This document shows, in pieces, positions 14,363-25,698 of a stretch of 64,000 nucleotides of DNA. Every line of letters begins with the position of its first letter. Within the stretch, counting starts at the first letter, position 1. Source of the stretch: Christiangramia portivictoriae DSM 23547 (GTDB lineage: Bacteria > Bacteroidota > Bacteroidia > Flavobacteriales > Flavobacteriaceae). The stretch lies in contig NZ_AUHF01000001.1 in the NCBI RefSeq assembly GCF_000423045.1, positions 310,001 through 374,000 on the forward strand, written 5' to 3'. A model generated the notes under the pieces. The model made no database searches. It had not been told where the DNA came from and was given only the letters and a program-made list of their open reading frames with translations. The position numbers were made by a program, and so were the translations under genes.

Positions 14363-17300
14363 CTAGAAGTCAAAATTCACGGTGAAGTTCAAACGACCTC
14401 CTTCGTCTCCAACATAATATCCAATATTACCAGTAAAGGCTTTGAAAGCATTTATGAAAATGGATCCCCCAACATTAGAGTGCCATTCATCACTATCATC
14501 TTCATCTACCCAAACTCTACCGTAATCATACCCAATACTTGCTCCCATACGAATAGGGATAAAATTGGTTCTGAACTGGGCGATTCCGCTGCGAATGTCG
14601 ATATTCTGGTAGAATGCATATTTACCGTTGAAACGTTCATTCCGGTAACCTCTTAGGGTGTTTCTATTACCACCACCAAGCGTTGCTGCATGATAGAACT
14701 CATACTCATCTCCAAGAATAGCCTCACCACCAATCTTTGTCGCGATCGCTGCAAATCCACTTTCGTGTAAAGGATAGTTCAAAGACAGCATTGGTCTCAC
14801 ATATGCGAACCTATTGTCGTACTCGTCGATGTTACTTTTATAACCAGCCGTTAGATCGAGCTCGATCCCTCTTGATGGAAATGCGACTCTGTCTTTATTA
14901 TAGTAATTATAATTTACCTCTGCGCCCGCGTACAATTGTTCGTCAAAGACAACATTTGAAGGATCGAAAGTTTCAGCTACAATTCTATTAGCGTCATAAG
15001 AAACCTGTTTAGACTCGATCATCGGCTTTAAGCTAAAGAATACATTTTTATTCTTTCTATAGATTAAAGATGGTGCAAGTCTCCATTGTTCAATTCTTAC
15101 CCGGTTATAATCCCTTGAAACATCATCATCGTCATATTCTGTATCGTTACCTGTTCCAAAATAGTTAATTACAAAATTGGGGCTGGAGTAATAAGCATCC
15201 AGACCAAAGTTCCATTTATAGAATATATTCGCGAATTCTCCGTAGTAACCCACATCAAAACCCTGGGTTGCGAAGTAATAATTTGCAGAAAGATTGTGTT
15301 GAGTAGTAAAAGGATTTCGCACCAGTCCGTAGGTTGTAAATGTGTTCTTTACTCCCAAACTAAATCCCTGATCTGAATTGAAATCGGCACTCGGAAAAAA
15401 GGTAAACTGGTTGCTTTTTCTCTTTTTAGGATCATAATTGTTGATATCGTAGGAATCAACAAGCATTTTGTTTGCTCCAGGAGTTTTGATCGTATTATTC
15501 TTGCTCTTGTAATCGTAGAGTTTCGCTTTTCGTTTATTCTGAAAATCATAAACATCATTCTCTTCACCACCAATAACTTTAAGCTTTACCAGGGAAGATC
15601 CATCACCTACGATCCTGAATTCATCATCGCCGTCAAGTCCATAGATCCATACCTCTTTAGTTTCGTTACTGTTGTATGTTTTTTGTGCTACCACCTTGCC
15701 ATCTTCATTGGTAAGATCTATTTGAGTAATACCGTCTGGTTTACGAGTTATAAGAAAGGCGTCATCGTCCTCGGTTCCCAGGAAAATGTCAAATTTCACG
15801 AGGTAGTCATAGTATTCGCGGGCGATCTCCATCATGTTGCCACGTCTTACCTGAAGGGTGCTTTTGATGTCTTTTACATACTCATCGCTGGCAATATCTG
15901 CAGGAAGTACGTCAAAAGCTTCCTGAATAACTTCATCTGTAAGCGTTTTCTGAAGGTATTCCGCCTGCTCTTTCCAGGTTTCCCAGTTATTTTCTCTAAT
16001 CACTGCTTTATCCAGTGGATATCCTGCGTGGTTGAACCATTTTGTTCTTTTTACAGTTTCAGTAAAAGGTTCCATCGCTCGAATTTGAGGGAAACCTACC
16101 CGAAGCAGGGAAAGTATAAAGCCATCGGTTTTAGAAAATACCTGGTCACGATCTTTGGCGATAGGAAGATAGCGCTTCTTACCATCTTCATCCTCAAACT
16201 CTGCCCATTCGTATTGTCCTTCATGCCTGTCCCAGTCTCCCAGGAACATATCCAGTAACCTCGCGCGTATATAGATCTCTTCATCTACATAAGCTTCTTT
16301 GGACTCCTGCATTTCCAGCAATAGATCTGAAGAGTTCAGGATATCTTTGGCGCCATCAAATATGGGTAGATCTTTATTTTCGTCTCCTATGTGTGCTTCG
16401 AACATATAGAGTTCATCTCCATATTCTTCATTGTACACGCCCAATGCTTCCTGCTTCGGCACATAATAAAGTTCAGAATTGGGATGAAAGATATCCAGTT
16501 CATCCATAAATTGTCCCGCCGGGAATGTTCCGTAGGGAAAAGCTGTGGTATAAAAATCCTGTATATAACGCTCAGCTACCGTGTTTTCCAAATAATCTTC
16601 TACGTAATGATTGGTGATCACGGTAGTTTGTAAAAACTGAAGTGCACTCTTTTTCAAAGCTCTCATGGTATATTCGTGACCATCGTCGTCTATGAACCCA
16701 AGCGATCTGGACTGGTGCCCACCACCGGCGCCCAATACTTTCATATTCCCTGGAATGGTGTCCAAATAAAGTACCGGGAATTCAAATTGTTTGCTGTACA
16801 GGGATCTGTAATGTTCTCCCCACAGAGCTTTATAGAGTCCGTCTTTATCGGTTTCTTCTTTGGTATAAACAGAAGCAGTGGTAGTTTTGCCTAACCTGGT
16901 TTCAGGCCACTCAACTTCATCTAAAGTCGGTCGTTCCCTAGCGATATCGTAGCTATAAATTTGTTCCTGACCCTGAGGAGAGACCGTAAAATATTCTACG
17001 TTCGAAGCCCCGTTTTTATAAATATTGATCTTCGCATAACCAAGGTTGTAATCCACAAAATCGCCTTCTTCTTTATCTGGTCTTGCTTTTGCGATCTCTT
17101 TGGTAACACCTGTAATGATCTGTTCGACCCCATCATCATTTACGAACTGAAGATTTCTATCTTTTCCGGAAAGGAAGATGACATCATTATACTGCCTTGC
17201 GAGGGCTTCAAGACTTCCCATTAATCTCTTTAGGTCTGGATTTCTGCTTGTTTGCGATCCAGAACCCAAGATCTTTTCAAAGAATCCTATTTTGGTTTGG

Positions 17301-17977
17301 GTAAGAACCGGATGATGAACTGCCACGAGCACTGTTTTTCTCTGGCTGTCTTCCAGTTCATCATTAAATTCGTCCAAGAACTGCAGTCTTGTTTTAATCT
17401 CACATTTATTATTAATATATGGATGGTCGTCCCAGTTTTCTAGATACCATTGGGAATCTATCATGATAAGCTGAACATCGTCGCTAAGACTTTCACTCTC
17501 AATAGGGCAACCATCATTAGGCCAGAAATCAGACTCAATGGTATCCTGTAAAAAAGATTCCAGGTCATCTATATTATCTGGAGCATCTTCCTGCCATTCA
17601 TTGTAACCAGGGGTAAAGATTATTTTACCGTTAAAACTTTTGATCCTGTCCAGTAGATTTTTTTTCAAATCCTCTTCCACCTTCGAGCGACCATTGTCTT
17701 TATCTGGAAATCCGCCTTCTGGTACGATGTTTCCAACCAGGACGAGGCTGTTAGAATCATTTTCCTGCGAAGATCTTACGATTTGATCGAGTATCTGTGC
17801 GTTGTCTTCATTTGAACGAAGTCCGGTATTGGAGGTTACATAAACAGAGTGAATAACCTCTTTGGATGCTGTCTGTGAATTTCCGGTCCAAGTTCCCAGA
17901 ATTGCCAGTAGTAAACCAAAAAATAAAGTTTTCTTGCCGGCTTGTGTGTGTAGGGTTTGTTTAGTAATTATGCTCAT
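14363..17977 (-). CDS. outer-membrane fusion: degenerate metallophosphoesterase domain plus BamA/Omp85-like barrel
   Basis: This is a 1204-residue exported protein with a signal peptide around residues 15-36 (KTLFFGLLLAILGTW). Residues of about 40-350 align with the calcineurin-like phosphoesterase domain of flavobacterial proteins of this architecture. A long middle region follows, and about 300 C-terminal residues form an Omp85/D15-type barrel (GGGNRNTLRGYRNERFNGKYAFYQN and a final NFTVNFDF). The catalytic motifs are altered: the GDAG position reads SNTG, GDN reads GN, GNHDW reads GYNEW and GHxH reads GKDR. Only VHHPVL is kept. The reading frame is intact, so it is probably a structural or binding pseudoenzyme rather than a phosphatase. 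The role is unknown. Confidence 0.85.
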   Translation of the reverse strand: MSIITKQTLHTQAGKKTLFFGLLLAILGTWTGNSQTASKEVIHSVYVTSNTGLRSNEDNAQILDQIVRSSQENDSNSLVLVGNIVPEGGFPDKDNGRSKVEEDLKKNLLDRIKSFNGKIIFTPGYNEWQEDAPDNIDDLESFLQDTIESDFWPNDGCPIESESLSDDVQLIMIDSQWYLENWDDHPYINNKCEIKTRLQFLDEFNDELEDSQRKTVLVAVHHPVLTQTKIGFFEKILGSGSQTSRNPDLKRLMGSLEALARQYNDVIFLSGKDRNLQFVNDDGVEQIITGVTKEIAKARPDKEEGDFVDYNLGYAKINIYKNGASNVEYFTVSPQGQEQIYSYDIARERPTLDEVEWPETRLGKTTTASVYTKEETDKDGLYKALWGEHYRSLYSKQFEFPVLYLDTIPGNMKVLGAGGGHQSRSLGFIDDDGHEYTMRALKKSALQFLQTTVITNHYVEDYLENTVAERYIQDFYTTAFPYGTFPAGQFMDELDIFHPNSELYYVPKQEALGVYNEEYGDELYMFEAHIGDENKDLPIFDGAKDILNSSDLLLEMQESKEAYVDEEIYIRARLLDMFLGDWDRHEGQYEWAEFEDEDGKKRYLPIAKDRDQVFSKTDGFILSLLRVGFPQIRAMEPFTETVKRTKWFNHAGYPLDKAVIRENNWETWKEQAEYLQKTLTDEVIQEAFDVLPADIASDEYVKDIKSTLQVRRGNMMEIAREYYDYLVKFDIFLGTEDDDAFLITRKPDGITQIDLTNEDGKVVAQKTYNSNETKEVWIYGLDGDDEFRIVGDGSSLVKLKVIGGEENDVYDFQNKRKAKLYDYKSKNNTIKTPGANKMLVDSYDINNYDPKKRKSNQFTFFPSADFNSDQGFSLGVKNTFTTYGLVRNPFTTQHNLSANYYFATQGFDVGYYGEFANIFYKWNFGLDAYYSSPNFVINYFGTGNDTEYDDDDVSRDYNRVRIEQWRLAPSLIYRKNKNVFFSLKPMIESKQVSYDANRIVAETFDPSNVVFDEQLYAGAEVNYNYYNKDRVAFPSRGIELDLTAGYKSNIDEYDNRFAYVRPMLSLNYPLHESGFAAIATKIGGEAILGDEYEFYHAATLGGGNRNTLRGYRNERFNGKYAFYQNIDIRSGIAQFRTNFIPIRMGASIGYDYGRVWVDEDDSDEWHSNVGGSIFINAFKAFTGNIGYYVGDEGGRLNFTVNFDF

Positions 17978-18170
17978 TAATGGTAGGAGTTTGATTGAAT
18001 TCAGTATAGTAGTAAGCTATTAACCTTCAAAAAAATCTAAATAATTTAGGATGTCATAGCTCTTTATAATACTTTAACAACCACTCCTAAATATTTTACT
18101 AATTAAGGAACATCTGCTTTTGTCCAGGCCTCAATTTAAATTTAACGTGTTTGATTTTCAGCATTCAGGA

Positions 18171-20960
18171 ATGCTAAAACTGCTTTTTATAAGCATACTG
18201 ATCTGCAGTAATCTGCAAGTATCTGGGCAGGAACTGCCGCCGGTTACAAATTTTAGTCCTAACGATTATTCCGCAGGTAACCAGAACTGGATGATTTCCC
18301 AGGCGGCCAACAAGAACCTGTATTTTGCAAACAGCACAGGTCTGCTCGAATATAACGGCGAACGCTGGAGATTATACCCGGTGCCCAACAAATCCATCGT
18401 GAGATCTGTAAAGGTTGTAAAGGATAAGATTTTTACGGGTGCTTACATGGAAGCGGGATACTGGAGTCCTACGGAAACCGGAGAGCTGGTTTTCCGAAGT
18501 CTTATTAAAAAGTTTCCCGGTCTTAGGGATGGTGAACAATTCTGGGATATAGAATATATCGATGAGCAGGTTATCTTCAGAAGTTTTGCAGGTATTTATC
18601 TGTATGATCCTGAACAGGATGAAGTCAATAAAATGGAGAATCTATCGGGGATGCCAATTTCCAATATTTTTAATTTTGAAGGCGAACTTTATTTCCAGTT
18701 AGTTAATGAAGGCCTGTATAAATTTGAAAAAGGTCAGCCCAGACAGATCATCGATGGGCAACAACTGGGCGATATGGCGATCATGCATTTATACGACCAG
18801 GAGAAAGATGGTCTTTCATTTATCACCGGGAATTCAGAATTCTACAGGCTTCGCTCAGGCAAAATAAGTCCATTCAACCAGCAGTTGAGCGAGAGCATTG
18901 GCAAACCTAACGCGCTGGATGCCTTAAATCTTACAAACGGAAATCTGGTACTCGGTACAGTAGGAAGCGGAGTGCTGGAGATCGATCCTGCCGGCGAAAT
19001 TATTGGCAAATTTGATCAGGATAATATCTTGCAGAATAATACCACTCTGGATTTGCACCTGGATCAATCTGGTAATGTTTGGGCGGGTCTTGATTTCGGA
19101 ATAAGTATTATAGATCTGGGTTCATCCTTTAGGTCGTTTCAAGATAACCGGGGCAAGGTAGGTTCTGTATACGATTCGTTCGAAAAAAAGAATTCACTGT
19201 ATCTGGGTACGAACCAGGGTTTGTATGTAAGAATGAACCCATCTGAAGATTTTCAGCTTATACCGGGAACAAACGGGCAGGTGTGGTTCCTGGAAGAGAT
19301 CGATGGCAATTTGTTTTGTGGTCATAACAACGGAACATTCCTGGTGGAGGGTGCGACTGCTACTAAAATCAGTGAGCGCCTGGGAACCTGGATCGTGAAG
19401 AAGTACAGGGATGATATTTACATTCAGGGCCATTATAATGGAATCAGTTTCCTGAGAAAAGAGCAGTCAGGTTTTAAGGATCTGCCTATGCTGGAAAATT
19501 TTCCGCATTCCTCTAAAAGCATCGTGGTTGCTGATGATCTTAGCATATGGATTGGCAACGAGCATAAAGGAGTTTTTAACCTTCAGCTAAATGAGTCTTT
19601 AAACAAAGTGTCTAATACAAACAATTATAAATTCGAAGAGGAGTCTGGTATTACATCTGGAGTATTTCAGTTTAATGATCATTTGTATTACAGTAGCCTG
19701 AGCAGCATTTTTAAATTTAATGAGGAAGCTGATGGCTTTGAGCAGGATAACGCATTAAATAAACTGGTAAGTGATCTAAACAGGGTTTCCGGCCGAATGA
19801 TCGTGGAACAGGATGATAAGCTATGGGGCTTTTCCGAAGAAGGAACCTTTTCTATAGAACCTGAGGGAATCGGCAGTGATTATAAGCTTGAATATATTTT
19901 TATCGACCAGGATTATCGAAATATTGCGGTGGGTTACGAGAATATCACTAAACTAGATAACCGCAGGTATTTACTGGGTGTGGCGAATGGATATATAAGT
20001 TTCGACGCTTCAGCAACCGATCCTGATTTTGAGGACTTTGAGATAAGTATCGACCGTATTACCGCCAGTTCTGTGGACTCTCTCGGAGTTTCCCTTGATT
20101 CTACGGAAGAGATCGTGCTTCCATTCCAGCGAAATAATCTGAATTTTGAGTTTAGCGCTCCGGTTTTCAAAAAGTATACGAAAGCGAAATACAGTTACCG
20201 GTTGACGGGTCTTTCCTCCAACTGGAGTAACTGGAACGAGGCGCACGAAGTCTCTTATGAAAACCTGAATTTTGGTGATTATACATTTGAAGTGAAGGCG
20301 AAGGTTGGTAATTTTGAGACAGCACCTGCGTCCATAACATTTAAAGTAGAAAGGCCTTTGTTTCTGAGTGCGGCGGCTATTATTTTCTATATAGTGATAT
20401 TTCTTCTATTGCTATATGCAGTTCATTTGATGAATAGAAGACATCACCGCAAGAATTTAGCTGAAAATGAGCGGGCTCTTAAGCTGAAGAATCTGGAGGC
20501 CGAAAAAGAGATCATAAAACTGCAAAATGAGAAGCTGGAACAGGACATGGCGGGAAAGAACCGTGAGCTTGCGGTAACGACCATGAGCCTTATCAAGAAG
20601 AACGAATTTCTTACCAAGGTAAAGGATGAGTTAAAAGAATACGAAAAGACGGGTAAAGTTCAATCTGTGATCAAAACTATAGACAAGAATATTAGTGAAG
20701 AGGACAACTGGAAATTCTTTAAAAAGGCTTTTAGCAATGCCGACAAGGATTTCTTTAAAAAGATTAAATCCAGACACCCGGAACTTACCTCCAACGATCT
20801 CAAACTTTGTGCTTATTTGAGATTGAATCTTAGCTCTAAAGAAATTGCTCCACTACTAAATATTTCTGTGAAAAGTGTGGAAATTAAACGATATCGTTTG
20901 CGTAAAAAGATGAATCTTGATCGCGAAACAAATTTGACAGAGTATATTCTATCTCTATAA
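18171..20960 (+). CDS. triple-tyrosine/LuxR-type membrane regulator of the glycan locus
   Basis: This is a 929-residue sensor-regulator with a signal peptide (MLKLLFISILICSNLQVSGQ) and a periplasmic propeller of repeated strands (YNGERWRLYPVPNKSIVRSV). A Y_Y_Y-like domain follows around residues 655-725 (YSYRLTGLSSNWSNWNE), then one membrane helix near 730-752, a cytoplasmic coiled coil, and a LuxR/GerE-like helix-turn-helix (LRLNLSSKEIAPLLNISVKSVEIKRYRLRKK). It has no histidine kinase or receiver domain, so it would act directly, as in SusR-type regulators. I chose ATG 18171 because it opens the signal peptide; the frame extends upstream to a TTG at 18120. It is 240 bp upstream of susC on the same strand and probably activates it on sensing the glycan. 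Confidence 0.88.
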   Translation: MLKLLFISILICSNLQVSGQELPPVTNFSPNDYSAGNQNWMISQAANKNLYFANSTGLLEYNGERWRLYPVPNKSIVRSVKVVKDKIFTGAYMEAGYWSPTETGELVFRSLIKKFPGLRDGEQFWDIEYIDEQVIFRSFAGIYLYDPEQDEVNKMENLSGMPISNIFNFEGELYFQLVNEGLYKFEKGQPRQIIDGQQLGDMAIMHLYDQEKDGLSFITGNSEFYRLRSGKISPFNQQLSESIGKPNALDALNLTNGNLVLGTVGSGVLEIDPAGEIIGKFDQDNILQNNTTLDLHLDQSGNVWAGLDFGISIIDLGSSFRSFQDNRGKVGSVYDSFEKKNSLYLGTNQGLYVRMNPSEDFQLIPGTNGQVWFLEEIDGNLFCGHNNGTFLVEGATATKISERLGTWIVKKYRDDIYIQGHYNGISFLRKEQSGFKDLPMLENFPHSSKSIVVADDLSIWIGNEHKGVFNLQLNESLNKVSNTNNYKFEEESGITSGVFQFNDHLYYSSLSSIFKFNEEADGFEQDNALNKLVSDLNRVSGRMIVEQDDKLWGFSEEGTFSIEPEGIGSDYKLEYIFIDQDYRNIAVGYENITKLDNRRYLLGVANGYISFDASATDPDFEDFEISIDRITASSVDSLGVSLDSTEEIVLPFQRNNLNFEFSAPVFKKYTKAKYSYRLTGLSSNWSNWNEAHEVSYENLNFGDYTFEVKAKVGNFETAPASITFKVERPLFLSAAAIIFYIVIFLLLLYAVHLMNRRHHRKNLAENERALKLKNLEAEKEIIKLQNEKLEQDMAGKNRELAVTTMSLIKKNEFLTKVKDELKEYEKTGKVQSVIKTIDKNISEEDNWKFFKKAFSNADKDFFKKIKSRHPELTSNDLKLCAYLRLNLSSKEIAPLLNISVKSVEIKRYRLRKKMNLDRETNLTEYILSL

Positions 20961-20982
20961 CCTTTACAACTATATAAAATAA

Positions 20983-21002
20983 CTCTACATTACCTCTACA
21001 TT
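20983..21002 (+). promoter_or_regulatory. two direct repeats CTCTACATT, candidate regulator site upstream of susC
   Basis: CTCTACATT occurs at 20983-20991 and again at 20994-21002, an 11-bp spacing or one helical turn. A weaker CTCTAAAATT follows from 21012. The repeats lie about 200 bp upstream of susC, right after the LuxR-type regulator gene, so they could be its half-sites. This is an inference from position and spacing only. Confidence 0.3.
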
Positions 21003-21200
21003 GCGCTAAGTCTCTAAAATTTAACACATTGCTTGAAAAATAAAAGGTTGGCTTAAATAACCCTTATTTGTTGTTATTTCTGAAATTTACGGGCTTGAAA
21101 ATTACGGAAACCTCAATTGTAGATATTTTGTAAAGGTTGAAAATCCTCCATACGCACCTCATGTTAATATATTGTAAAAGCAAATTTAATTTTAAAACAC

Positions 21201-24200
21201 ATGAGGAAATTTACCTGTCTTTTGATTGTATTTCTAAGCGGGTTTTTCGGTGCTTACGCGCAATCGTTTTCGGTTAACGGAACGATCACCGATGAGAACA
21301 AAATGCCTTTACTGGGGGTAAATGTTATCGTTAAAAATCAATCAAGAGGTACAACTACCGATTTTGATGGAAACTATACGGTACAAGATATCTCCTCTGG
21401 AGATGTACTTCAGTTCAGTTATTTAGGTTTTCAAACCCAGGAAATCACAGTAAATGATCAGCAAACGATCAATGTAACGCTTCAAACAGATTCCGAAGCA
21501 TTAAATGAAGTAGTAGTGATTGGGTATGGAACTCAATCCAGAAAGGAAATTACCGGTGCGGTAAGTGTAGTGGGTTCTGAGACAATTGAAGATTTGAATC
21601 CCGCGCGTGTGGAACAGGCCCTGCAGGGTAGAGTAGCGGGTGTAAATATTACCTCTACTTCAGGTTCCCCAGGGAGTGCTTCCACAATTAACATTCGAGG
21701 AATTAGTACTAATGGAGATAACCGTCCATTAATACTTGTTGATGGGAACGTGATCGAAGATCTAAGTGTCATTAACCCTAATGATATTGAAAGCATTAAT
21801 GTACTGAAAGATGCAACTGCCGGTATTTATGGAGTTAGAGCTGCCAACGGGGTGATCCTTATTACCACGAAAACCGGTTCCTATAATGCAGAGCTTCAGG
21901 TTGAATTTGATGCCTATACTGGTGTACAGGAAACCACGCGAAGGTTGCCAACCCTGAATGCTACAGAGTACGCGGTGATCGTAAACGAGGCATATGCGGC
22001 CAATGGACAAAACCCTCCGTATCCAAATTACAGAAACCTTGGAGAAGGAACAGATTATCAGGATGAGGTGTTTACCACGGCACCAATGTCTGATATGAAC
22101 CTGAATATTTCTGGGGGTGGCGATCGTTCAAAATATTCATTTGGAGCTTCCTACTTTAACCAGGATGGTATTGTTGGTGGAAGCAAGTCCAATTATGATC
22201 GTTTTACAGGACGGGTTAACTACAACCTTGAGATTATAGACAATCTTAAAATTAACCTTTCCGGGATCTATACGAACAGCAACCGTAAAACTTTAGCTGA
22301 AAATGCTCTGGGGTCTGTACTTTTTAACGCGGTGAACATGAATCCTAATATTCCGGTTCGTGATGCAAATGGAAATTTCTCGCTGGCTGAAGGTTTAGGA
22401 AACGAGGTGATCAACCCGCTGGCACAAATCAATGATGCTTATAATGATACACGTGTTGATAAGATTAGTGGTGTAGGTGGACTTGAATATACAATATGGG
22501 ATAAATTAACCGCGAAGACTCAATTCCAGTTCAACTATTCTGAAGTGGATGGAAGATATTTCTCACCGGAGGTTTTTTATGGATCAGGAAAGGTTTTCAA
22601 CGTAGACCGTAACAATGTTACCGAGAATTTTGAGATCTACAGGGATTATACCTGGGATAACTTCCTAACCTACAATGATAGTTTTGGTGATCATAATTTG
22701 AAGTGGTTACTGGGAATGTCTGTTTTCAAAACCACTGGAGACCTGGCTTCCCTTACAGGATTTGAACTTCCTACCAATGAATATGGTTTGGCAAGAGTTT
22801 CCAATGCTGCTGAAGTGGTAGACAATTATCAAAATGGCGGAGATACTTTTGATACCCGATTATTATCTTACTTCACGCGAGTGCAATATGATTACGAAGG
22901 GAAGTACCTGTTCTCCGGCCTGATTAGACGTGATGGTTCTACTGCTTTTGGTCCAGAGAACAAATTTGGATGGTTCCCGTCTGCTTCCGTAGGATGGGTA
23001 ATTTCAGATGAGGATTTTATCAATGACAATGGCGCGTTGAGCTTTCTAAAATTGAGAGGTAGTTACGGTATTATTGGAAACGATAGAATTCCGGCTTTTA
23101 GATATGCTTCTTTACTAAATGGTGAAGGTGCTTATGTATTTGATGATGAAATCATCTTCGGAAAAGCTAGTGGAGCTCTAGGAAACCCTGAAATTAAATG
23201 GGAAAAACAGAAGACACTTGATATTGGACTTGACGCGAGATTCTTTAATTCCAGTGTTGATGTTACGATCGATTACTTTAAAAAGAAAACCGAAGACCTT
23301 CTTGTAATTCCGCAGGTATCAGGAATTTTAGGAGTTGCGGCTCCAGGATCTTCTGCGCCTTTCGTAAATGGTGGTGGAGTAGAGAACGAAGGACTTGAAT
23401 TTTCTATTGGCTATAACCAGGTGGTGAACGATAACTTTAAATTCAACCTGAACTACAATCTTACAGCTCTTAGGAATGAAGTACTTTATGTAAACAGTGA
23501 AAGTGGATTTATTCCTGGAGGAGTTTTTGGAGTAGGACAGGAGCCACCGTCCAGAATGGAACCAGGAAAACCAATCGGTTATTTCTATGGTTTGGAAACT
23601 AATGGAATTTTCCAGACACAGGCAGAAATTGATGCTGCTCCACAACAGGCCAATGCGGCACCTGGAGATATTCGTTTCGTAGATCAAAATGGGGACGGAG
23701 TTATTAACAGTGATGACAGAACAGATATTGGAGATCCAATTCCAGACCTTACCATGGGTGCCAATATCGGATTTACCTTCAAAAACTGGGATTTCAACGC
23801 TTATGCCTTTGCTTCTTTAGGAAATGAGATCGTAAGAAACTTCGAGAGAAATCAGCCTAATACGAACAGGACCAATGCATTTCTAGGTAGATGGACGGGA
23901 CCGGGAACTACAGATAGTTTCCCACGAGTGACCGTTGGTGCTACCGGAAATAACCAGTTCTCAGATTTCTTCGTGGAAGATGGTTCATATTTGAGACTTC
24001 AGAATGTACAGCTAGGTTATACACTGGATTCAGATCTTATCGCCAATACAGGGGTAGAAAAATTTAGAGTATACGCTTCAGTAAATAACGCCTTCACTCT
24101 TACAGAATACAGCGGGTATGATCCTTCTGCTTCAAACGGAGCACCTATTGGTGGAGGAATCGATCAGGGATTCTATCCGGTACCAAGAATTTATATGTTA

Positions 24201-24221
24201 GGAATTAATATGAAATTTTAA
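21201..24221 (+). CDS. susC: SusC/RagA-family TonB-linked outer-membrane glycan importer
   Basis: This is a 1006-residue TonB-dependent transporter. After the signal peptide (LLIVFLSGFFGAYAQ) comes a carboxypeptidase-regulatory-like domain of about 80 residues (VNGTITDENKMPLLGVNVIV). The family signature LNEVVVIGYGTQSRKEITGA and the plug domain follow (RVAGVNITSTSGSPGSAS, NVLKDATAGIYGVRAANGVI), then a long beta-barrel ending in LGINMKF. With SusD it would import oligosaccharides using TonB energy. It is the first gene of the operon: susD starts four bases after the stop, and further glycan genes follow on the same strand. The length is normal for the family. Confidence 0.97.
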   Translation: MRKFTCLLIVFLSGFFGAYAQSFSVNGTITDENKMPLLGVNVIVKNQSRGTTTDFDGNYTVQDISSGDVLQFSYLGFQTQEITVNDQQTINVTLQTDSEALNEVVVIGYGTQSRKEITGAVSVVGSETIEDLNPARVEQALQGRVAGVNITSTSGSPGSASTINIRGISTNGDNRPLILVDGNVIEDLSVINPNDIESINVLKDATAGIYGVRAANGVILITTKTGSYNAELQVEFDAYTGVQETTRRLPTLNATEYAVIVNEAYAANGQNPPYPNYRNLGEGTDYQDEVFTTAPMSDMNLNISGGGDRSKYSFGASYFNQDGIVGGSKSNYDRFTGRVNYNLEIIDNLKINLSGIYTNSNRKTLAENALGSVLFNAVNMNPNIPVRDANGNFSLAEGLGNEVINPLAQINDAYNDTRVDKISGVGGLEYTIWDKLTAKTQFQFNYSEVDGRYFSPEVFYGSGKVFNVDRNNVTENFEIYRDYTWDNFLTYNDSFGDHNLKWLLGMSVFKTTGDLASLTGFELPTNEYGLARVSNAAEVVDNYQNGGDTFDTRLLSYFTRVQYDYEGKYLFSGLIRRDGSTAFGPENKFGWFPSASVGWVISDEDFINDNGALSFLKLRGSYGIIGNDRIPAFRYASLLNGEGAYVFDDEIIFGKASGALGNPEIKWEKQKTLDIGLDARFFNSSVDVTIDYFKKKTEDLLVIPQVSGILGVAAPGSSAPFVNGGGVENEGLEFSIGYNQVVNDNFKFNLNYNLTALRNEVLYVNSESGFIPGGVFGVGQEPPSRMEPGKPIGYFYGLETNGIFQTQAEIDAAPQQANAAPGDIRFVDQNGDGVINSDDRTDIGDPIPDLTMGANIGFTFKNWDFNAYAFASLGNEIVRNFERNQPNTNRTNAFLGRWTGPGTTDSFPRVTVGATGNNQFSDFFVEDGSYLRLQNVQLGYTLDSDLIANTGVEKFRVYASVNNAFTLTEYSGYDPSASNGAPIGGGIDQGFYPVPRIYMLGINMKF

Positions 24222-24225
24222 TTAG

Positions 24226-25698
24226 ATGAGAACGAAATTATATACAATCAATTGGATTTTCGCCTTTGCACTGCTGGCGCTGTCCGGATGTAGCGATGAC
24301 TTCGTGGATGTAGACAGCCAGGATGAGAATTCTGAAGATTTCTTTAATACACCCGAGGATTATGATCTAGCACTGGTAGGAGCATATGATCTGCTCCAGT
24401 CCACATATCTTAATGTAATGCTTGGCGAGATCGCTTCAGATAACACATTGGCAGGTGGAGAAAGTGCGAATGATGTTCCTGGAATACAGGAAATAGACAA
24501 TATGGAGCATACTCCGGTAAACCAGCAATTAAGAGATATCTGGAGCTGGATGTTCGCCGGTGTGAACAGAGCGAATTATGTACTGGAATATCAGGAAGCA
24601 CTGGATTTTGAAGGCAAAACTGAAATTATTGCCCAGGCTAGATTTCTAAGAGCGTATTACTACTTCGAACTGGTAAAATGGTTTGGAGATGTGCCATTGG
24701 CAGTAGATAGCAGAATTCAGTTTGGAGAGCAATTTGATATTCCCAGAACTCCAAAGGCTGAAGTTTATGCGCAGATCGAGCAGGATCTTATGTTCGCAGC
24801 AGCAAATCTTCCAGCGGTACAGCAGGTAAAAGGTCGTATAACTTCAGGAGCAGCCCAGGCATTGCTTGGAAAAGCTTATTTGTTTCAGAATAAATTTGCT
24901 GAAGCAGCTACTGCTTTCGAACCTGTAATTAGTGGACCTTATTCCCTCGTGCAGGATTATAACTTCATATTTGAGCCAGAAGGTGAGAATAATTCAGAGT
25001 CAATTTTTGAAGTTCAGTATACAGATGAAGAAGGTGCTGGTTTTGGATGCCTTCAGTGTTCAGAAGGAAATGTTGCGGTAGGATTCAATGGGGTTAGAAA
25101 CATATCTTATCCAAACCCTGATAATGCAGTTTTCGATTCTGGTTTCAGCTTTAATGTTCCTGTACAGGAAGTGGTTGATCAATTCTCAGACGATGACCTT
25201 CGTAAAGAGGTGGCGATCCTTGATATCGAGGCACATGCTGCTGCAACTGGAGCAAGCTATGCGACAGGATATGAGCACACAGGATATTTCAACAGAAAAT
25301 ATATCGCGAGAGCGGGTGATTTGAATACCGGTGATCAAAACCTTACAAACCCGAACAATTACCGCGCTATCCGTCTGGCAGATGTGTTGTTGATGGCTGC
25401 GGAAGCGAATTTCCAATCTGGAAATGAAGACCGTGCCAGGACTTACCTAAATCAAGTAAGGAACAGAGCCGGACTGGAAGATGTTTCATTTTCAGGAAAT
25501 AACCTGATCAACCAGATCTACGAAGACCGCAGATTGGAACTTGTAGGTGAAGGACATCGCTTTTTCGACCTGGTGAGAACAGGAAGAGCAGCAGATGAAA
25601 TTGACGGTTTCATTACCGGAAAACATGAATTATTCCCTATCCCGGCGATCGAAATCGAGCTTGCCGGTAACAACTGGGAGCAAAATCCAGGATACTAA
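24226..25698 (+). CDS. susD: SusD/RagB-family surface glycan-binding lipoprotein
   Basis: This 490-residue lipoprotein has its lipobox at LSGC followed by SDDF, the acidic signature seen after the cysteine in surface-exported Bacteroidota lipoproteins. SusD hallmarks include a TPR-rich helical core (RAYYYFELVKWFGDVPL, ALLGKAYLFQNKFAEAATAF) and the C-terminal block YEDRRLELVGEGHRFFDLVRTGRA ending in LFPIPAIEIELAGNNWEQNPGY. It caps the SusC barrel and binds the incoming oligosaccharide. It is translationally close to susC (4 bp gap) and to the next gene (24 bp gap). Confidence 0.97.
   Translation: MRTKLYTINWIFAFALLALSGCSDDFVDVDSQDENSEDFFNTPEDYDLALVGAYDLLQSTYLNVMLGEIASDNTLAGGESANDVPGIQEIDNMEHTPVNQQLRDIWSWMFAGVNRANYVLEYQEALDFEGKTEIIAQARFLRAYYYFELVKWFGDVPLAVDSRIQFGEQFDIPRTPKAEVYAQIEQDLMFAAANLPAVQQVKGRITSGAAQALLGKAYLFQNKFAEAATAFEPVISGPYSLVQDYNFIFEPEGENNSESIFEVQYTDEEGAGFGCLQCSEGNVAVGFNGVRNISYPNPDNAVFDSGFSFNVPVQEVVDQFSDDDLRKEVAILDIEAHAAATGASYATGYEHTGYFNRKYIARAGDLNTGDQNLTNPNNYRAIRLADVLLMAAEANFQSGNEDRARTYLNQVRNRAGLEDVSFSGNNLINQIYEDRRLELVGEGHRFFDLVRTGRAADEIDGFITGKHELFPIPAIEIELAGNNWEQNPGY

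Follow-up and report, generated by a model that had tools for sequence, protein, structure and literature searches.

Fusions of a phosphatase domain with an outer-membrane barrel have already been described as the "Metallo" subfamily of Omp85 proteins (Heinz and Lithgow 2014, PMC4104836). Plasmodium GAP50, whose fold resembles that of purple acid phosphatases (PAP), has been described as an acid phosphatase by an earlier study (PMC8949495). Here we analyse a gene of this general make-up in a 64-kb stretch of DNA from Christiangramia portivictoriae DSM 23547 (64,000 nucleotides; contig NZ_AUHF01000001.1, positions 310,001 to 374,000), hereafter the window. The gene lies on the minus strand at 14363-17977; "window protein" designates its product and "window clade" the family subgroup to which it belongs. 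The encoded protein combines a signal peptide, a PAP-like phosphatase domain that is very probably dead, a middle domain predicted to adopt a protein-kinase-like (PKL) fold, a beta-rich linker and an Omp85 barrel. Across the family, some paralogues have lost the phosphatase ligands and others the kinase-type motifs. On our best reading, the window protein would be a kinase-like enzyme anchored in the outer membrane, and the phosphatase that once opposed it would be out of service.

Phosphatase ligands and the kinase-like middle domain

The frame begins with ATG and codes for 1204 amino acids with no internal stop. Residues 38-345 (16943..17866; all features of the gene are on the minus strand) form the degenerate phosphatase domain. 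A profile built from the phosphatase domains of 20 intact relatives matched human tartrate-resistant (purple) acid phosphatase, TRAP5 (E 1.3e-9), and also Plasmodium GAP50 (E 1.2e-5). The domain is therefore of the PAP type and its ligands can be placed: the set, which we take to be D-D-Y-N-H-H-H, falls at window-protein residues 50, 83, 86, 125, 221, 272 and 274. These positions are occupied by N, N, P, Y, H, K and R, so that one ligand of seven is kept and six are lost. All seven are present in an intact paralogue that the genome also encodes (C2:699974-703477). The two proteins are 37% identical over window residues 65-1203 (E 5.2e-234). The pairwise alignment with this paralogue spans motifs II-V, and the position of motif I comes from the multiple alignment.

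All of the motif variants quoted in an earlier, sequence-only reading of this DNA were located. Motif I is SNTG (residues 49-52; 17822..17833) where intact relatives have GDAG or GDGG, the ligand D being changed to N50. Motif II reads GN (82-83; 17729..17734) in place of GDNIY, with N83 for the ligand D and P for the ligand Y86. In motif III, GYNEW (124-128; 17594..17608) replaces GNHDW; the ligand N125 has become Y, and the adjoining N126-E127 pair is conserved in the clade. Both ligand histidines are gone from motif V, GKDR (271-274; 17156..17167), which is GHEH or GHDH in intact relatives. Motif IV, VHHPVL (220-225; 17303..17320), holds the sole PAP-type ligand kept, H221 by alignment with TRAP5. 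Class totals for the 179 family members discussed below are unchanged if H222 is taken instead; H222 served as the motif IV ligand for the tree states, for the scoring of 12 named genomes and for grouping in the residue-conservation counts.

Pfam family PF00149 detects the paralogue (1.3e-10) and not the window protein. The purple acid/calcineurin-like phosphoesterase fold is nonetheless there, as the full model matches GAP50 (3tgh) in Foldseek (E 5.1e-8) and the sequence aligns with the intact paralogue through the domain; what the window protein lacks is the seven-ligand metal site of these enzymes. The sequence-only reading was thus right about the intact frame, about the altered metal motifs with VHHPVL remaining, and about a fold kept without its metal ligands. 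To judge from the residues, the domain is very probably no longer a metallophosphatase.

The same reading joined the phosphoesterase to a BamA-like barrel. Both are present, but the middle third of the protein, residues 365-735 (15773..16885), was overlooked and is neither. Pfam and NCBIfam gave nothing credible for this domain. No kinase family was present among the 25 listed of 31 Pfam families for 40 members, and the curated CotH, Fam20C and HipA models were likewise unmatched, both there and in a further scan of six proteins (one of them common to the 40-member scan). The AlphaFold model of the domain has a predicted local distance difference test score (pLDDT) of 91.2 and a predicted template-modelling score (pTM) of 0.90. 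Its Foldseek matches in the PDB were led, at modest scores, by CtkA (the best, E 1.1e-4), CotH, Rio2, PI4K and Fam20C. Forty-two of the 50 listed matches are titled kinase, pseudokinase, HipA/HipT, COQ8 or phosphotransferase; the other eight (Rv3197, MSMEG_1954, two pre-40S chains) are presumably UbiB/ABC1- or RIO-type kinase folds. When the PDB was searched with a sequence profile, CtkA again came first, weakly (E 0.1) and aligned on the catalytic loop.

The set of motifs expected of a PKL domain is present. It comprises a glycine-rich loop, GGG (residues 418-420; 16718..16726); the basic residues R439 and K443; a catalytic-loop-like segment, GDWDRHEGQ (580-588; 16214..16240), which includes D583 as the putative catalytic aspartate and which alignment and profile set against GNFDRHNGN of CtkA; and, at the position equivalent to DFG, KDRD (608-611; 16145..16156), with D609 and D611 as candidates for the second metal-binding aspartate, where most relatives from other genera have RDRD. 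The predicted model, with modest template-modelling (TM) scores, points to a protein-kinase-like fold whose kinase-type motifs are intact.

Conservation was scored in 35 full-length window-clade proteins: 14 from different genera (window protein included) and 21 further congeners, six of which are on the tree described below, the others having been assigned to the clade by identity. All 35 retain only 0-2 of the seven phosphatase ligands. In the same 35 proteins, the motifs GGG, R439, K443, GDxDRHxxQ and (R/K)DRD and the 13 kinase-type positions scored are all kept, barring R608K and D581N. It is the kinase-like module that appears to be the conserved working part of the protein. Comparison among congeners shows the phosphatase as the best-conserved region of the intact paralogue (mean identity 0.861) and as the least conserved of four regions in the window clade (0.699). 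Ratios of nonsynonymous to synonymous substitution (dN/dS) are saturated for most pairs, with dS under 2 in all regions in only two window-clade pairs and one intact-paralogue pair. The least saturated congeneric pair of the window clade (L044/L045) gives 0.035 for the phosphatase, 0.032 for the middle domain and 0.021 for the barrel, and both usable window-clade pairs fall at 0.02-0.04 in every region. These values indicate purifying selection, the phosphatase being apparently under somewhat relaxed but real constraint. The sequence-only reading was to fall if the substitutions were unique to this genome and the gene evolved neutrally; since they are shared throughout the clade and selection is purifying, that question is answered against neutrality.

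Reciprocal loss of modules in the family

Module states were counted in 179 full-length members (window included), drawn from a family sample of one genome per genus and from the genus itself; seven of 186 proteins, shorter than 1150 amino acids (contig-cut, split or short copies), were excluded. In the family sample, 109 of 149 genomes had a match in a list that ended at weak E-values, and 103 had a full-length copy that was counted. All seven phosphatase ligands are found in 119 members and five or fewer in 60; the kinase motif score is 12-13 of 13 in 169 members and 9 or fewer in 10. Jointly, 109 proteins have both modules intact, 60 are phosphatase-dead and kinase-intact, 10 are kinase-motif-dead and phosphatase-intact, and none is dead in both. 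The glycine loop is broken in all ten kinase-motif-dead copies, which have also lost H585 (10), Q588 (9) and D609 (9); D583 is kept in nine.

Both modules are kept in all 73 genomes of the family sample that have a single full-length copy. Each of the 30 multi-copy genomes has at least one module-dead copy, yet both modules are found between its copies. In tandem arrays, a phosphatase-dead copy adjoins a kinase-dead copy. It looks as if one protein with two jobs had split into specialists.

A tree was built from linker and barrel columns only, for 120 of the 179 rows, by a quick search with branch support from the Shimodaira-Hasegawa-like approximate likelihood ratio test (SH-aLRT), and was left unrooted. 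It requires a minimum of seven changes in phosphatase state and two in kinase state. Strongly supported branches alone force at least five changes for the phosphatase-dead state and two for the kinase-dead group. The window clade forms a single group (20 rows, SH-aLRT 99).

Twelve named genomes beyond the first sample, chosen for unusual or window-clade copies, were also tested. Eight keep both modules across their copies; among these, the intact-phosphatase copy of G416 has a borderline kinase-motif score (11/13) and that of G422 is cut short (808 amino acids). The kinase-like module is kept in all twelve and the phosphatase in eight, which makes the phosphatase the dispensable part and narrows the claim of subfunctionalisation. 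Complementarity as an absolute rule was rejected because of an exception in Myroides (see below).

Across the phylum, 91 of the 247 sampled genomes encode the middle domain. Twenty regions, chosen by frame length to display architectures (so that their proportions carry no meaning), revealed phosphatase-kinase-barrel proteins, kinase-barrel proteins without phosphatase, and kinase-linker proteins without barrel. What these architectures have in common at their core is the kinase-like module rather than the phosphatase. The window genome also encodes a membrane-anchored kinase-only relative of 426 amino acids (L014:1070-2350, minus strand), and frames of similar length match this stretch in 21 of the 24 genus genomes. 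By eye, the gene lies beside an esterase-like and a transporter-like gene. Three kinase-linker proteins that lack a barrel are adjacent in a single genome of the same class (L240, L262).

Anchor, linker and gene context

The N-terminal signal region of the window protein (residues 1-34; 17876..17977) has no lipobox, whereas one is found at the N-terminus of the intact paralogue (...VSCASLEP). The lipobox pattern was positive in 72 of 109 intact relatives as against 0/14 and 2/21 in the two parts of the window clade; as it undercounts, skipping clear cases such as ...NACATY, only the contrast between groups is claimed.

At the other end, residues 851-1204 (14366..15427) form an Omp85-type barrel. 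The likeness to BamA put forward from the sequence alone holds up: the barrel is BamA/TamA-like, with a best Foldseek E of 1.2e-10 and 16 strands counted in the model. NCBIfam Omp85_fam matches at E 1.3e-13 with 51 bits, below the curated cut-off of 200, and Pfam gave no match anywhere in the window protein, barrel and POTRA included. The segment LRGY (residues 1108-1111; 14645..14656) matches the Omp85 loop-6 signature, which we take to be (V/I)RG(F/Y); L1108 and R1109 are invariant, and G1110 nearly so, in 30 aligned proteins. In Omp85 proteins, whatever precedes the barrel lies on its periplasmic side, and the phosphatase and kinase-like modules are therefore presumed to be periplasmic.

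Between middle domain and barrel lies a beta-rich linker (residues 736-850; 15428..15772) with GLDGDD and GGEEND motifs. Five of its residues (D785, G791, G803, G804 and D808) do not vary among 30 aligned relatives. By eye, GLDGDDEF and GGEENDVY resemble the calcium-binding repeats of RTX proteins. BamA-type assembly proteins use POTRA repeats, and a POTRA domain has two helices; model residues 695-805 (protein 729-839) contain strands and no helix, and hence give no indication of POTRA repeats. The barrel-assembly role contemplated in the sequence-only reading is therefore weakened, though the model would still allow it.

By identity, the nearest named match of the window protein is in an uncultured Christiangramia metagenome-assembled genome (95% identity over residues 414-1204). 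Divergent from the gene, at 18120-25698 on the plus strand, are genes for a Y_Y_Y/LuxR-type regulator followed by SusC- and SusD-like proteins. This layout is kept in 7/7 contexts from the genus (window included) and in 2/13 from other genera (3/13 counting SusC alone). A conserved operon partner was rejected, as no gene except the family member itself is found in all 20 contexts; some single neighbour genes are common more widely, and L073 and L074 have some neighbours in common. Next to or near one intact phosphatase-kinase gene is a protein that combines an HD domain with a PycTM (Pycsar effector) domain at its C-terminus (L250:6530-7711, minus strand). BLAST clusters place relatives of this protein in 9/9 contexts with one intact gene (L250-L258; domains were scanned in the L250 copies only), and a 787-amino-acid protein of unassigned family in 8/9.

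Interpretation and comparison with known systems

The observations to be explained are the loss of ligands, an evolution that is shared and constrained, a predicted kinase-like fold whose motifs are intact, and the reciprocal losses among paralogues. The explanation we favour, with a probability of roughly 0.5, is that the family represents an outer-membrane kinase/phosphatase pair that specialises after duplication, the window gene being a kinase-only specialist. A protein anchored by its Omp85 barrel would expose, on the periplasmic side, a PAP-type metallophosphatase and, working against it, a protein-kinase-like domain. The single-copy form keeps both and would probably attach phosphate or a related group to some envelope substrate and take it off again. 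Once duplicated, the copies would specialise: the window protein would retain kinase-type catalysis, the intact paralogue of the same genome would supply the phosphatase, and the dead phosphatase fold may be kept as a scaffold, a substrate-docking or a regulatory domain.

Several points weigh against this explanation. The TM-scores are modest (0.38/0.48 for the best match), only three PDB matches reach E 0.001, and the kinase-type catalytic residues were placed by motif and not by coordinates. R608 is K in the window protein and in 19 of 21 congeners, and D581N occurs in L021. In some kinase-barrel relatives outside the family (L230, L236, L237, L238) the motifs are degenerate or absent by simple pattern. 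The reciprocal side of the argument rests on few events, because kinase-motif loss needs only two changes, and parsimony cannot separate loss from gain because the tree has no root. All four Myroides genomes tested (L351-L354; six Myroides records were seen) have one copy, phosphatase-dead and kinase-intact. Finally, the periplasm is not known to contain adenosine triphosphate that could serve as the donor.

It is rather unlikely, though worth considering, that the kinase-like domain performs other PKL-fold chemistry, such as transfer of adenosine monophosphate, glutamylation or lipid phosphorylation, making the kinase/phosphatase opposition only apparent. PKL-fold enzymes with non-kinase activity exist (SelO, SidJ), the nearest folds include PI4K, CotH and HipA, and both the Gln at the catalytic-loop Asn position (Q588) and the RDRD of the "DFG" region are atypical; phosphate chemistry is, however, the best fit, given that 109 of the 179 members carry the kinase-like domain and an intact phosphatase on one chain. 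It seems improbable that the whole protein has turned non-enzymatic and plays a binding or structural part in barrel assembly or export, as the sequence-only reading had it. The Omp85 barrel with its loop-6 signature would suit such a part, as would the fact that GAP50, a PAP-like membrane anchor, is the sole non-barrel structure among the 50 listed matches of the full model. The stretch between kinase-like domain and barrel, however, contains strands only and no POTRA-like helices, GAP50 has itself been described as an acid phosphatase (see above), and a purely structural role leaves unexplained why a kinase-fold domain should keep its 13 kinase-type positions in 35 proteins (bar R608K in 20 and D581N in one).

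Alternatively, the altered phosphatase pocket (N50, N83, N126, E127, H221/H222 and D273) may bind an ion or ligand, for instance calcium, and so serve the kinase-like module in sensing or regulation. N50, N83 and E127 are invariant in 35/35 window-clade proteins, N126 is found in 33/35 and D273 in 32/35, against a mean pairwise identity of 46% for the domain across the clade's genera; the pocket is therefore conserved in altered form. The residue set is not common to other phosphatase-dead copies, however, and a Winogradskyella member of the named set, outside the 35 (L284), has Q at position 50. This proposal is, if anything, a shade more improbable than the previous one. Decay to a pseudogene would account for the phosphatase being the least conserved region in the window clade, but is hardly credible: it is contradicted by the low dN/dS in all regions (two pairs with dS under 2) and by a frame open in 23 of the 24 genus genomes, one being cut by a contig end and the 24th genome being 67% complete.

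If the kinase/phosphatase explanation holds, kinase-type chemistry on an outer-membrane barrel would make one ask what donates phosphate outside the cytoplasm, and would point to reversible modification of the Bacteroidota envelope. More tentatively, the family may constitute a widespread, unrecognised class of Bacteroidota outer-membrane kinase/phosphatases that writes and erases a phosphate-type envelope mark, with duplicates repeatedly splitting the two tasks and the window gene as a writer only. By losing opposite modules, the paralogues offer a natural experiment in which the two are separated, and one that the tandem pairs of several genera open to direct testing.

Among open-licence PMC papers, titles and abstract openings disclosed no report of the kinase-like domain or of the reciprocal loss, and the main texts of two 2025 papers on the Bacteroidota beta-barrel assembly machinery (BAM) complex (PMC12611786, PMC12578637) contain neither "phosphatase" nor "kinase". 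The Omp85 "Metallo" subfamily is alike in joining a PF00149 domain to the barrel, but there the domain is termed a metalloprotease and the main text lacks the word "kinase" (PMC4104836); the window member differs further in that its PF00149 signal is gone. A predicted Legionella family provides a precedent for an arginine where kinases have their lysine (PMC9758233). The predicted fold is shared with the CtkA, CotH, Rio2, Fam20C, HipA and PI4K-II kinases, and a G(N/D)xDRH loop aligns with that of CtkA; the likeness is remote, however, with no kinase family model matched, and the domain of the window protein sits on an outer-membrane barrel. With TRAP5 (PDB 2bq8, 1war), intact relatives have GDxxY, GNHD, the motif IV histidine and GHxH in common, whereas the window protein keeps one ligand of seven. 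Plasmodium GAP50 (PDB 3tgh) is alike in having a PAP-like fold that serves as a membrane anchor; we take it not to be joined to a kinase-like domain or a barrel. PFKFB-type bifunctional kinase/phosphatases carry opposing activities on one chain, with isoforms biased to one side. They provide a comparison for the way the family may work and for nothing else, their domains being unrelated and cytosolic.

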